From positions 2,091,501-2,155,500 of the forward strand of contig NC_016024.1 in NCBI RefSeq assembly GCF_000226295.1: DNA of 64,000 nucleotides, read 5' to 3'. Of this stretch, positions 18,268-59,306 are shown piece by piece (position 1 is the first letter of the stretch; each line of letters starts with the position of its first letter). A program made the translations under genes and the position numbers. This stretch comes from Chloracidobacterium thermophilum B. Lineage in GTDB: Bacteria > Acidobacteriota > Blastocatellia > Chloracidobacteriales > Chloracidobacteriaceae. The notes beneath the pieces are model-generated. The model ran no database searches and was not told the origin of the DNA. It was given only the letters and a program-made list of their open reading frames with translations.

Positions 18268-18495
18268 ATGGGTCAGTTCAAAAAAGTCGTGGACTCCATC
18301 GTCGAGATCGGCGAGATCAACCTTGAAGGTCACATCAACCTCGTGGGCGACATTTACCGCGCCATTGCCTACAACTTCGACCGCATTCAGGGACGTATGT
18401 TTGACAACCTGTATGACGGCGGCGGGGCACGGCGCAGTATGGGCGCGTCTCCGGCGGGCAAGACCACGGCTTCCCGCTTCACAGCCGAAGGATAG
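18268..18495 (+). CDS. csmA: Chlorosome envelope/baseplate protein CsmA
   Basis: This 75-residue protein resembles the CsmA precursor of green bacteria (79 residues in Chlorobaculum tepidum). CsmA forms the paracrystalline baseplate that binds BChl a and passes energy from BChl c aggregates to the reaction centre. The segment VVDSIVEIGEINLEGHINLVGDI matches the amphipathic helix with the conserved EGH; His22 would be the BChl a ligand. NFDRIQGRMFDNLYDGGG corresponds to the family's second half. The C-terminal tail after about residue 50 is Gly/Ser/Ala-rich; in other species such a tail is removed on maturation. GGAGG (18253-18257) is 10 bases before the ATG. Its neighbours bchG and the unknown downstream gene strengthen the call. 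Confidence 0.92.
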   Translation: MGQFKKVVDSIVEIGEINLEGHINLVGDIYRAIAYNFDRIQGRMFDNLYDGGGARRSMGASPAGKTTASRFTAEG

Positions 18496-54426: not shown

Positions 54427-55467
54427 CTAGTGGGCGTCTGTCTGGCGCTCGCGGAGCAGGGCCATGACCTGCTTGATGTCTTCCCACACTTCGCGCTTTT
54501 TGTCCGGCGCGCGCAACAGATACGCCGGGTGAAACGTCGGCATGAGGGGGATGCCGTGGTAGTCCTGGAAGCGCCCGCGAATTTTGGAAATGCCACCCAG
54601 TTTGGGATCACCCAGCAACGCGCTTGCGGCTGAAGCACCCAGCGCGACGATAACATGGGGACGGATGACCGCCAACTGGCGATGAAGAAAGCCCACGCAG
54701 GCGGCCACCTCATCCGGTTCCGGCGTCCGGTTTTCCGGGGGACGGCACTTGACGACGTTGCAGATATAGACCTCCTCCCGGCGCAAGCCCATGGCGGCAA
54801 TGATTTTGTCGAGCAACTGCCCGGCGCGTCCGACGAACGGCCGCCCGGTGGCATCTTCTTCCGCGCCCGGCCCTTCGCCGACGAAGACCACCGGCGCCCG
54901 GGCCGCCCCTTCGCCAAAGACGATGTTGGTCCGGCCGGCGGCGAGCTTGCAGCGTTGACAATCCCCCAGATCGGCGCGGATGGCTTCCAATGTTACGTCT
55001 GAAGAAACTGGCAGCGATGCCGGCGGGACTTCCCCAAACAACGAGTTCTGTTGAGGTTTGGAAGCGGTGTGGGCAGGCTGGTTGCGGTTCACCGGGGTTC
55101 TGGATAAAGTTTCGTCATCGGCTTTCGAGTGACTTGACAGTGTAAGCTGGCGGTGCAAGGAAGGGTCCATAAGCGGTTGGTGGCCACGACTTGGTTGCCC
55201 GGCACCCGGAGACTCCAAGGCCGAAGGTGCGATGACGCCTGCCTTGGCCGTGTCAGAGGATTCGGGTCCAAAGGACTCGGGCACGTGAGTATCAGAAACT
55301 ACTGAAGGATGTGGTGCACTGGAGGATACGGGCACGGATGGCTGCGGGACAGCCGTCTGCCCCGCGCTGACAAAGGAGACTCCGTTTCCGGTCAGAAACC
55401 GAAGCTGGTTGGCAATGTCTTCCAGTAGAGCGTGGATTTCAGTTTCCGGTGTGTTTTTCACAGGCAT
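54427..55467 (-). CDS. Type 4 Fe-S uracil-DNA glycosylase with long disordered N-terminus
   Basis: The catalytic part occupies residues about 150-346. It has LGDCQRCKLAAGRTNIVFGEG (first two cluster Cys), motif A VFVGEGPGAEEDATGRPFVGRAGQLLD, the Cys in VYICNVVKCRPPENRTPEPDEVAACVGFL and the late motif MPTFHPAYLLR. These are typical of thermophile-type UDGa, which removes uracil from DNA at high temperature. Type 4 enzymes are usually about 200 residues. Here residues 1-148 are an extra Ser/Pro/Gln-rich segment with no visible domain (SVPVSSSAPHPSVV; SLHRQLTLSSHSKADDE). The extension may tether the enzyme to replication proteins; this is inference. mgtC follows after 30 bases. Confidence 0.93.
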   Translation of the reverse strand: MPVKNTPETEIHALLEDIANQLRFLTGNGVSFVSAGQTAVPQPSVPVSSSAPHPSVVSDTHVPESFGPESSDTAKAGVIAPSALESPGAGQPSRGHQPLMDPSLHRQLTLSSHSKADDETLSRTPVNRNQPAHTASKPQQNSLFGEVPPASLPVSSDVTLEAIRADLGDCQRCKLAAGRTNIVFGEGAARAPVVFVGEGPGAEEDATGRPFVGRAGQLLDKIIAAMGLRREEVYICNVVKCRPPENRTPEPDEVAACVGFLHRQLAVIRPHVIVALGASAASALLGDPKLGGISKIRGRFQDYHGIPLMPTFHPAYLLRAPDKKREVWEDIKQVMALLRERQTDAH

Positions 55468-55836: not shown

Positions 55837-57405
55837 ATGGGTTTTTTCGACCGCTTTTTTGGCAAGAAAAAAGAAGAACCACCCGTCACACCGTCTCCTA
55901 CTTACGTTCCACCGGAACCACCACCGCTTCCGGCCGCGCCGCCACCCCGTTTGGAGCCAAAGGAGGCAGCGCCACCACCGGTTGAGCCGCGTTTTGAGAC
56001 CCAGCCGCAGACGCCCCATCCGGCTCTGGAAACTCCCGCCCCGGCACCAGGGGCAGACGCTCCCACCACGGCTTCCACCACCAAAGCAACGGTTTCTGAA
56101 GAAACAACGGACGCCCTCCTCCCCGATGCGCTCGCAGAAGAAGAAGACTTCACACTTTCAGGGCTGACCACGGACACCCACGACACGGCGCTGCCCCAAG
56201 TTGAGGAATCCCAAGTTGAGGAATCCCAGGATGTATCGGCAGCCGGGGTGGTTGAAGAAGTTGTCGTCGGCGTCGGGACACGGCTGGAAGTCACCCCTTC
56301 TGGTGCACGAGGACTGGACATTGCGGATACCACCTCGGCCGTGGACGAAGCCGAGGCAGACGACACAGATTTTGACATCCCCATGGTGCGCACCGATGGG
56401 GACGGTCGGACGGAGGTATCTCACCCCCAACTCGATGGACAGTCCGGCCGGCTTGTGGAGGATGAGGAAGACGACCTGGAAGGCTTTGACGACGCCTTCG
56501 AGCGCATCTTGGCCCAAGGTGACATGGATGGCCTTGGTGAAGATACCGAGCCGGCCGTCACCACCGACCAAACCGAGGTACGGACGCTTTTTTCCGAAAT
56601 TGCCGCCAATTACATTCGCCCGGTCAAAGCCTTCATCATCGAGTTGCGGTCGGGTGCGGCGCGCAAGGAATGGCTCGAAATGTGCCAACCGGCCATCAGC
56701 AGCCTGGGCAAATCCGCCTTGGGCATGGGGATGGAAGATGTCAGCGACGCCGTTCACGAATTTGAAACCCTGCTTGATGAGGCGCGAGCTTCCCGGGAGG
56801 GGATGGTGAGTGGTGAACTGCGGGAGCGCATCCTGCAGCACTACCAGACCTTGACCGACATGCTTCCGGCAACCTTCGTCATTGACGACACCACGCTTCA
56901 ATCCGAAGGCATGATCGTCAACTCGTTGCTGAAACAAATCCCTGAAGTCGGAAAGGTGACGATTGACAAACTCTACCGGGCCGGGCTGATCACTATCGAA
57001 AGCTTCCTTGTGGGCGCCAAGGAAGACTTGGCGGTAGCCACCGGGCTGCCCATCTGGCTGGCCGAAAAAATTGTCGAGAAGTTCAAATCTTACCAGCAAC
57101 AACTGGAAAGCGGACTGGTCCAGAGCGGCAAGGAGGGATTGCTCAATCGGCTGGAACAGCTCATGCGAGACCTCCACGATGCCCACGAAGCCTATGAAAT
57201 TGCCACGGCGGAAGAATCCAGCAACCCTTCGGCGGCCGAAGACCGAAGGTTTTACCGTCAGGCGCGCCAGGAAACACAGCTTCAAATCAACGTTCTCCTG
57301 GCCGAGTTGGGTGCTGTTGATCTGGCCAATGAGATTCAGCGCCTCTCGTTCGAGAAGCGCATCGAGCGATTGCGGCGCTACATAGCGGAAGAACGGCGGT
57401 CATGA
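55837..57405 (+). CDS. Putative membrane-anchored scaffold protein with helix-hairpin-helix region, unknown family
   Basis: This 522-residue protein is not recognised as a whole. Residues 1-14 (MGFFDRFFGKKKEE) form an amphipathic basic helix of the kind that anchors FtsY-like proteins to the membrane. Residues 15-240 are long, acidic, Pro/Thr/Glu-rich disorder with a short tandem repeat (QVEESQVEESQ, from a 15-base repeat at 56206-56235). Residues 248-330 are helical and HPt-like (FSEIAANYIRPVKAFIIELRSG; MEDVSDAVHEFETLLDEA) but without a clear phospho-His motif. Residues 375-420 hold helix-hairpin-helix-like segments (LLKQIPEVGKVTIDKLYRAGLITIESFLVGAKEDLAVATGL). A C-terminal coiled coil (430-522) ends EKRIERLRRYIAEE. 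It is followed by the pentapeptide and bactofilin genes; a polymer-anchoring role is inferred. Confidence 0.7.
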   Translation: MGFFDRFFGKKKEEPPVTPSPTYVPPEPPPLPAAPPPRLEPKEAAPPPVEPRFETQPQTPHPALETPAPAPGADAPTTASTTKATVSEETTDALLPDALAEEEDFTLSGLTTDTHDTALPQVEESQVEESQDVSAAGVVEEVVVGVGTRLEVTPSGARGLDIADTTSAVDEAEADDTDFDIPMVRTDGDGRTEVSHPQLDGQSGRLVEDEEDDLEGFDDAFERILAQGDMDGLGEDTEPAVTTDQTEVRTLFSEIAANYIRPVKAFIIELRSGAARKEWLEMCQPAISSLGKSALGMGMEDVSDAVHEFETLLDEARASREGMVSGELRERILQHYQTLTDMLPATFVIDDTTLQSEGMIVNSLLKQIPEVGKVTIDKLYRAGLITIESFLVGAKEDLAVATGLPIWLAEKIVEKFKSYQQQLESGLVQSGKEGLLNRLEQLMRDLHDAHEAYEIATAEESSNPSAAEDRRFYRQARQETQLQINVLLAELGAVDLANEIQRLSFEKRIERLRRYIAEERRS

Positions 57406-57544
57406 CGGTTTTGATGACACCGGGTTCGTATGTTGATTTTCAGACACCATCCAGCATGACCTGCTGGGGCGCAAAGGCGATGTATCAAACTGCGCGACCC
57501 GCCCCAACCACCATATTCAAAAAAACGGCGAAAGGGGTTCCTCC

Positions 57545-58804
57545 ATGCCTGAGTTCACCTTGGAAGAAGTCATCGAACGAGTAGCGCGCGGCGAATCGCT
57601 CGAACGTGCTGACCTGCGCGAACTCGACCTGGCGAAAGCCAACCTGGACAATGCCAACCTGCGGCGCGCCGACCTCGAAGGGGCCAACCTGGAAGAAGCC
57701 AGTTTGCGACGCGCCAACCTGGCCAGTGCCAGCTTACGGGATGCGTTTCTCGTGCGGGCCAACCTCGAAGGCGCCAACCTCCGGGGCGCTGACCTGGAAA
57801 GCGCCAACCTTGAAGGGGCGAACCTCCGGGGCGCTGATTTATCCCGGGCCAACCTCGAAGGGGCCAACCTCGAAGGGGCAGACCTGACCGGGGCGCGCCT
57901 CCCCTCAGCCCAGTTGATAGACGCCAAACTGGGCGTGGCCACCCTTGAAAACGCGGTCTTCGCCAACGCTGACCTGCGCAATGCCTACCTGGGCGGGGCC
58001 AACCTCACGGCGGTTGACTTCCAGAATGCCATTCTGGAAGCAGCCAACTTCGAGGAAGCCCTGCTGACTGGGGCCAACCTGCGGGATGCTGTTCTGCGCC
58101 GGGCCGTCCTTCCCGGGGCAGACCTCTCCGGTGCCAAGTTGGAGCGCGCCGTACTCGAAGGCGCCGACCTCTCCCAGGTCAGTCTGCTCGAAGCCGACTG
58201 CCGGCACGCCACATTCCAGGGCGCGCGCCTCAAAGGGGCAAAATTCAGCCGCACCCACCTCTACGGCAGTGACTTCTCCATTGAAGTGGCGGACGGCGCT
58301 GAAGTGGACGAAGTGGACTTCAGTGTGGCCGGCGATGGCTCGAAGTTGGTGCCAGCCTCGGCCTTGGCGGCCTTTCTCAATGGCAGGACAGATGGTGGCA
58401 CCGCCTCTCCTCAGGCCGTCGCCGTGGCAGTGGCCCCCATCCCAACCAATCGCCGCTACTTCGGTCACGGAGACGTACTGCGGGATGCCTCGCTCGAATT
58501 TGATGCTGATTCCATCGTTGAAGTGGATGGACGGTTTTTGAAGTGCAATATCACACTCGGTCAGGGTGCACAGCTCATCATCGGGCGCGAGGGACTGCTG
58601 GATAGCTGCCAGGTTCACGGGAGCGGCATCCTGGTGATTCACGGGCGGTTCACGTCTGAGGCCTCACCCGGCATTGATGGGGCGCGTCGCATCATCGTCG
58701 GCGCCACCGGCTGCCTCCGGGCAACCGTCAAACAGCCCGCAGGACATACCCACTTTGCCTTTGAACCAGGCTGCGTCCTGCGCCTCAAAACCGAAACGGC
58801 TTAG
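57545..58804 (+). CDS. Pentapeptide-repeat protein with bactofilin-like C-terminus
   Basis: This 419-residue protein has about 35 A(D/N)LxX pentapeptides over residues 18-245 (LERADLRELDLAKANLDNANLRRADLEGANL and on), which should form a right-handed quadrilateral beta-helix. The DNA shows matching imperfect 15- and 30-base repeats between about 57600 and 58250. After a linker (residues 265-300), residues 305-419 (FGHGDVLRDASLEFDADSIVEVDGRFLKCNITLGQGAQLIIGREG; VHGSGILVIHGRFTSEA) resemble a bactofilin-type beta-solenoid. This combination is unusual: two solenoid types in one chain. AAAGGGG lies 7-9 bases before the ATG. The gene precedes a bactofilin and could cap or extend its filaments. Confidence 0.88.
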   Translation: MPEFTLEEVIERVARGESLERADLRELDLAKANLDNANLRRADLEGANLEEASLRRANLASASLRDAFLVRANLEGANLRGADLESANLEGANLRGADLSRANLEGANLEGADLTGARLPSAQLIDAKLGVATLENAVFANADLRNAYLGGANLTAVDFQNAILEAANFEEALLTGANLRDAVLRRAVLPGADLSGAKLERAVLEGADLSQVSLLEADCRHATFQGARLKGAKFSRTHLYGSDFSIEVADGAEVDEVDFSVAGDGSKLVPASALAAFLNGRTDGGTASPQAVAVAVAPIPTNRRYFGHGDVLRDASLEFDADSIVEVDGRFLKCNITLGQGAQLIIGREGLLDSCQVHGSGILVIHGRFTSEASPGIDGARRIIVGATGCLRATVKQPAGHTHFAFEPGCVLRLKTETA

Positions 58805-58880
58805 TTTCCAACAGAACCAACATCAACTGATGCACGGTCATTGCGGATGATGCGTTCAACCCCTGACACTGAGGAAAGTC

Positions 58881-59306
58881 ATGGCGGAGAAACTTACAAT
58901 CGTTGAAGAAGGTAGTGAACTGACTGGTACACTCAAGTCCACCTGTGGCGTCACCGTCAGCGGCAAGGTCAGCGGTGAACTTCATGCACCGGCGCTGGTC
59001 GTCGCCGCCACCGGTGCCGTGCACGGCACCGTCAAGGTGGACAAACTCCTCTCCCAAGGCGAACTTTCGGGACGGATTGAAGCTGACACCATCGAGCTTT
59101 CGGGCCGCATCAACGACCAGACCACCATTACGGCCCGCTCCCTTGAAGTCAAAAGCTCAAGCGGTGATCAGCCAACGGCTATCTTTGGCAACTGTGTCAT
59201 TGAGGTCGGTGTTGATCCCAACGAGCCTGCCCCGCCAGCCGCACCACCTGCCAAGGAAGGCAAAGGCAAGAAAGGGCAACCGACACCCGAGCCGACGGGT
59301 GAATGA
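58881..59306 (+). CDS. Bactofilin (CcmA family) cytoskeletal protein
   Basis: This 141-residue bactofilin polymerises into nucleotide-independent filaments that organise envelope and chromosome processes. It begins MAEKLTIVEEGSELTGTLKSTCGVTVSGKVSGEL with the typical six-strand beta-helix through residue 100 (ATGAVHGTVKVDKLLSQGELSGRIEADTIELSGRINDQTTITA). The tail is Pro/Ala/Lys-rich (PAPPAAPPAKEGKGKKGQ) and probably interacts with partners or the membrane. GAGGAAA 6 bases before the ATG supports the start. It ends the three-gene plus-strand cluster with the anchor protein and the pentapeptide/bactofilin fusion. Confidence 0.93.
   Translation: MAEKLTIVEEGSELTGTLKSTCGVTVSGKVSGELHAPALVVAATGAVHGTVKVDKLLSQGELSGRIEADTIELSGRINDQTTITARSLEVKSSSGDQPTAIFGNCVIEVGVDPNEPAPPAAPPAKEGKGKKGQPTPEPTGE

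Follow-up and report, generated by a model that had tools for sequence, protein, structure and literature searches.

Three adjacent genes in the genome of Chloracidobacterium thermophilum B, here called A, B and C, form a conserved unit that recurs in the same order in 14 genomes, and we give an even chance to the reading that their products build one membrane-attached bactofilin scaffold, probably of a kind not described before. The genes lie in the window analysed here, a stretch of 64,000 nucleotides (G000:C1:2091501-2155500) from a genome of 3,695,372 bases (3.70 Mb), which consists of two contigs, one of 2.68 Mb and the other of 1.01 Mb. An earlier note on this DNA, made from its letters and open reading frames (ORFs), did not recognise the arrangement as a described system, and it does appear to be an undescribed unit of three co-inherited genes: our literature search found no paper combining ‘bactofilin’ with ‘pentapeptide repeat’, and ‘bactofilin’ beside ‘Chloracidobacterium’ only in a broad phylogeny paper that names bactofilin once. 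An ORF check of the window confirmed the three genes at the expected coordinates, all on the forward strand, with spacers of 139 base pairs (bp) between A and B and 76 bp between B and C:

55837..57405, + strand: gene A, 522 amino acids (aa), putative membrane tether/adaptor of the cluster (ORF; orthologues upstream of B)
57545..58804, + strand: gene B, 419 aa, two-solenoid protein (ORF; AlphaFold2 model with a mean pLDDT, the predicted local distance difference test score, of 89.6)
58881..59306, + strand: gene C, 141 aa, divergent bactofilin (Pfam PF04519)

Orthologues of A were sought in 58 relatives, and the C-terminal domain of B in 162 class genomes and in 396 across the phylum. Within the class, 13 of the 162 have B, and these fall in families f1, f2 and f6; the one further carrier, G348, belongs to a different class. 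In all 14 of these genomes A lies immediately upstream and C immediately downstream. The A–B–C order is distributed over ten genomes of one family, two of a sister family, one of another family and the one from the other class, while a further genome (G013), whose contig ends inside B, is consistent with the trio and adds a fifteenth A orthologue. The earlier note had tied its reading of the three genes to their co-occurrence outside this genome, and the obligate co-occurrence seen here means that this check did not refute it. The intergenic gaps shrink to 8–55 bp in f2, f6 and G348 (down to 8, 14, 15 and 20 bp in distant members), which argues for reading the trio as an operon.

The three gene trees agree, with G348 as sister to G010/G011 (support 0.995, 0.97 and 0.83), and the three genes have therefore moved or been inherited jointly; the trio probably reached the class of G348 by joint transfer. 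Identity to the most distant trio members is 37–49%, and the GC content of the trio follows that of each host genome. Contamination as the source of the G348 trio was rejected, the trio there having a GC content of 66% on a 70% GC contig as against 40–48% in its nearest relatives. Beyond the window's family, no further gene family is common to the trio neighbourhoods, bar a possible partial match at one distant locus, and a wider system including more neighbours was rejected because none is kept beyond the family. Judged by its concordant trees and by the loss of every other neighbour outside the family, the trio is a self-contained unit. These data also bear on the possibility that the three genes are merely co-transcribed and ancient, with C forming its own filament and A and B acting elsewhere. 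Such a reading draws on the facts that an interaction of the products is something we infer and that A has close paralogues outside the cluster; we nevertheless regard it as unlikely, as the order is kept at 37–49% identity with one tree for all three genes while other neighbours change, and as the trio was probably transferred jointly to another class.

On profile evidence, C is a true but divergent bactofilin. It scores 49.5 bits against a cut-off of 27.9 for the Pfam bactofilin family (PF04519), as the earlier note's ‘plain bactofilin’ in third place had anticipated, and its profile finds the solved bactofilins 6ria and 2n3d. C is the only bactofilin in the 3.70-Mb host genome. Of the three-gene bactofilin cluster of the earlier note, one member is a proven bactofilin, not three. 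The cluster bactofilins score 46–56 bits versus 65–94 for the other over-cut-off bactofilins of the same genomes. They carry no N-terminal membrane-targeting sequence (MTS) in 13 of 13 cases; an MTS is common among bactofilins, neither universal nor obligatory for membership. C itself ends in a basic, Pro-rich C-terminal tail. In a survey of 14,337 bactofilins the global N-terminal motif is MFSKKKK, the N-terminal peptide of the Caulobacter bactofilin drives membrane binding, and the Caulobacter client PbpC is able to replace the bactofilin MTS (PMC12448750).

In this trio, a bactofilin-like start is found on A, which comprises the following parts:

55837..55884, + strand: aa 1–16, N-terminal peptide MGFFDRFFGKKKEEPP, bactofilin-MTS-like (15 of 15 type I orthologues)
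55885..56469, + strand: aa 17–211, Pro-rich acidic linker, predicted disordered (pLDDT <50 over aa 36–211)
56470..56532, + strand: aa 212–232, conserved acidic short helix DDLEGFDDAFERILAQ (helix 215–230 in the model)
56557..56880, + strand: aa 241–348, HPt-like four-helix domain without phospho-histidine (CheA P1 profile; Foldseek)
56887..57108, + strand: aa 351–424, acidic helix–hairpin–helix (HhH) domain, HhH_5 (Pfam PF14520; RadA profile)
57109..57402, + strand: aa 425–522, C-terminal helical hairpin/bundle (model)

The N-terminal peptide (MGFFDRFFGKKKEE) proved genuine and is conserved, a hydrophobic and basic stretch of 16 residues that is absent from the type II and type III paralogues of A described below and confined to the bactofilin-linked type I. 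To call an MTS we used a rule of our own, a hydrophobic residue at positions 2–4 and at least two K/R near the start, applied to the first 16 residues of A and the first 9 of bactofilins, with the canonical starts picked by hand. A passes in 15 of 15 orthologues (e.g. MGFFDRFFGKKKEE) and the canonical bactofilins of the phylum pass in 13 of 16 (MGLFKKDE, MRFGKQQ, MFGKRDD and similar), as against 0 of 13 cluster bactofilins (start MAEKLTIVEE); the contrast between C and the canonical proteins is unaffected by the 16- versus 9-residue difference. The linker that follows (~195 residues, isoelectric point (pI) 4.05, 42 D/E, 28 P) is as acidic as the earlier note had described it.

The ~280-aa folded module of A has no Pfam family except HhH_5 in a Pfam scan, and it is a family of its own. 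Its last part was taken by the earlier note for a coiled coil, which was not demonstrated; the model instead gives helices at 431–458, 465–490, 494–500 and 505–521 (pLDDT ~88–96) in a hairpin or bundle. The module occurs in at least three proteins of the host genome, A itself being type I, with a weaker fourth relative at C1:1286633, and a motif similar to DDLEGFDDAFERILAQ precedes it in all paralogues of A. The other two types are:

L025 6384-7862: type II paralogue, 492 aa, N-terminal helical domain followed by the HPt-like/HhH module
L026 7156-10842 (G000:C2:701155-704841), − strand: type III paralogue, 1228 aa, module at its end, on the second replicon

Directly after the type II paralogue comes a receiver-like protein, whose Response_reg match (E 3.9e-4) falls short of the cut-off. 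Among 11 type II loci, 4 have such a protein as the next gene, and these 4 all belong to the window's family. In the host genome the type II locus (L025 6384-8593, G000:C1:2214383-2216592) passes by a start–stop overlap into this receiver-like protein of 244 aa. At another locus (L033) the start of the receiver-like neighbour looks PATAN-like by eye; Pfam makes no such call. Most trio-bearing relatives also have the type III architecture, whose N-terminal part has no Pfam match.

The HhH domain suggests an alternative in which A ties the bactofilin scaffold to DNA, for chromosome tethering or segregation, by comparison with the bactofilin and ParABS scaffolds of Myxococcus. The domain itself was reported in the earlier note: HhH_5 matches aa 364–417 (E 1.2e-4, alone below the curated cut-off) and is matched in 22 of 22 module relatives (best E 3.2e-5), the nearest solved relative being the RadA N-terminal domain (profile E 1e-7). 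The same note's suggestion of DNA contact gained no support. Because the domain is acidic (pI 5.05, 8 basic versus 10 acidic residues), as are all folded domains of A, DNA contact is unsupported; moreover, the glycine of the second GxG hairpin is lost (TGLP), the domain also occurs in the paralogues associated with receiver-type proteins, and there is no ParA or ParB among the conserved neighbours. We therefore consider a DNA tether improbable.

B combines two solenoids:

57590..58279, + strand: aa 16–245, 45–46 uninterrupted pentapeptides, quadrilateral beta-helix (Pfam PF00805, 271 bits)
58451..58801, + strand: aa 303–419, second beta-solenoid, bactofilin-like in its predicted fold (model; weak hhalign match)

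The first has Ala at the first position in 40 of 46 repeats and Leu or Phe at the third in 45 of 46, and profile score, repeats and model together give the tandem A(D/N)LXX beta-helix of a pentapeptide-repeat protein, longer than the ‘about 35’ repeats previously counted. In a fold search its nearest natural fold is HetL (3du1). The second solenoid is modelled with rungs of ~20 residues at pLDDT 85–95 in most blocks (AlphaFold2), and its domain has 43 invariant columns across 13 orthologues. Cys 334, 355 and 410 of B (window 58544-58774) are invariant in those 13 orthologues, as is Cys 105 in C; core stacking or metal binding are candidate roles. Since the pentapeptide solenoid is acidic and both Qnr and MfpA are among its fold matches, B might be taken for a DNA mimic that protects topoisomerase, standing beside the bactofilin through co-regulation only. 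This is very improbable, and a Qnr-like role was rejected, as the family profiles fall far below their cut-offs (75.4 bits against 240 for Qnr, 67 against 360 for MfpA), the repeats run uninterrupted without the Qnr loops, the best natural relative is HetL, and B, with a second solenoid fused to it, is never found without the bactofilin.

The HPt-like domain of A, also predicted from the letters alone, matches CheA P1 by profile (E 2.6e-4 and 5e-4) and by fold (1tqg, Foldseek TM 0.70 normalised to the target), with no match of the Pfam Hpt model to single sequences of the module. Where CheA P1 has its phospho-His, all 22 module sequences examined have a residue other than His (S, N, R, V, L, Q, T, E or M). 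As this histidine is missing in 22 of 22, the domain is, in terms of its residues, at most a binding domain, unable to relay phosphate. For all its similarity to CheA P1 in profile and fold, the idea that A is a phosphorelay HPt exchanging phosphate with a receiver, with the bactofilin merely localising it, is hardly credible; it was rejected on the missing His, and the conserved neighbourhood of the trio holds neither kinase nor receiver. A scaffold specific to phototrophic machinery (chlorosomes), prompted by the chlorosome-bearing host and genus, has a negligible chance and was rejected by distribution, as 6 of 12 cluster genomes tested have no CsmA match, these six representing six other genera in four families. 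The window itself has a match to the chlorosome envelope protein CsmA (PF02043, 32.6 bits) at 18271-18456 (genome C1:2109771-2109956).

In the membrane-attached scaffold proposed at the outset, C would polymerise through its beta-helical core, as is the property of its family, without a membrane-targeting peptide of its own, and the N-terminus of A would bind the membrane, supplying the MTS function in trans. The disordered acidic, Pro-rich linker of A may serve as a spacer, and its folded module (degenerate HPt, HhH and helical hairpin) as a protein-docking adaptor that would bind receiver-type signalling clients, the B/C scaffold or both. B would be a rigid rod, its pentapeptide beta-helix of ~11 coils being roughly 5 nm long, with its second, bactofilin-like beta-solenoid docking on C so as to co-assemble with, cap or cross-link C polymers. 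The adaptor role of A is one that we infer by analogy with FimL, a homologue of the ChpA N-terminus that connects PilG, a response regulator, with FimV, a polar hub (PMC10519157). Shape, motility and polarity are candidate cellular processes for the scaffold to serve. A fuller version, in which the scaffold is regulated and has three components, with a peptide-anchored pseudo-HPt/HhH adaptor (of receiver-paired paralogues) recruiting the MTS-less bactofilin and the B rod co-polymerising, is possible and we offer it tentatively.

Several results weigh against this scaffold. An association among the products of A, B and C is a candidate only and unproven. In several genomes A and B lie more than 120 bp apart, which leaves a single transcript unproven, and scans that were themselves uninformative gave no promoter-like match upstream and no coding-strand terminator-like match. 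The N-terminal peptide of A is modelled at low confidence, and 46% of its shuffles reach its hydrophobic moment, so that it is not unusually amphipathic; because the moment is no higher than in shuffles, ‘bactofilin-MTS-like’ is a better term than amphipathic helix, and the anchor of the earlier note stands as a conserved candidate tether, not as an unusually amphipathic one. A receiver partner of type II was seen in no family other than the window's own, with two of three Pfam matches below the cut-off. Finally, the C-terminal domain of B compares with bactofilins in hhalign at P 4e-4 to 4e-3 and a probability of only 8–36%, where the control comparisons gave P 0.2–1 for the pentapeptide half of B against bactofilins and a probability of 94% for C against canonical bactofilins. 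Pfam calls no bactofilin in this domain, a PDB profile search with it gave nothing meaningful, and no bactofilin is among the matches listed by Foldseek for B, a list filled by pentapeptide matches. The bactofilin-like solenoid claimed for B thus survives as a predicted beta-solenoid, for which model and sub-threshold profile comparison are suggestive of a bactofilin, not proof.

Each component resembles a known system in part. C shares the bactofilin beta-helix with the canonical members of the family (BacA of Caulobacter, ThBac of Thermus, CcmA of Helicobacter), and the solved structures 6ria and 2n3d are among its matches. It differs from them in lacking an N-terminal MTS, in falling in a separate divergent group and in its obligate linkage with A and B. 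The N-terminal half of B shares the quadrilateral beta-helix of HetL (3du1) and other pentapeptide-repeat proteins; what sets B apart is the second beta-solenoid fused to this half and its place between A and a bactofilin. A recalls FimL and the ChpA N-terminal adaptors of the Pseudomonas Pil-Chp system, ChpA-related adaptors that connect a polar hub to a response regulator, in a likeness of logic alone; A differs by its HhH and helical-hairpin domains and by having a bactofilin, not FimV, as its partner. The Caulobacter BacA–PbpC pair offers a further parallel, in that the partner, itself membrane-bound and with a Pro-rich stretch that is disordered, can give a bactofilin its membrane attachment (PMC12448750). 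A differs in having neither a transmembrane helix nor a catalytic domain; its putative anchor is a peptide, and its adaptor module is HPt-like/HhH.

If the membrane peptide does sit on the partner, this obligate trio would allow the published result that membrane binding can come from a client to be tested in a natural setting. Bactofilins are widespread, and few of their partners are known. The A module, which lies outside Pfam and takes three architectures in the lineage, may be a new class of phosphorylation-incompetent adaptor, and B would offer, if the scaffold is real, a pentapeptide solenoid in a cytoskeletal role.

Two further observations concern the surroundings of the trio and the host genome. 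Divergent from A lies a uracil-DNA glycosylase-like gene (window 54427-55467, − strand) with a long low-complexity N-terminal extension, and elsewhere in the family a gene of this kind is kept upstream of the trio at two loci; one distant locus has a possible match, a short one. The host genome also has 17 DUF4388 (PATAN) matches and its relatives up to 45, a large repertoire that may connect to the type IV pilus or to surface signalling.

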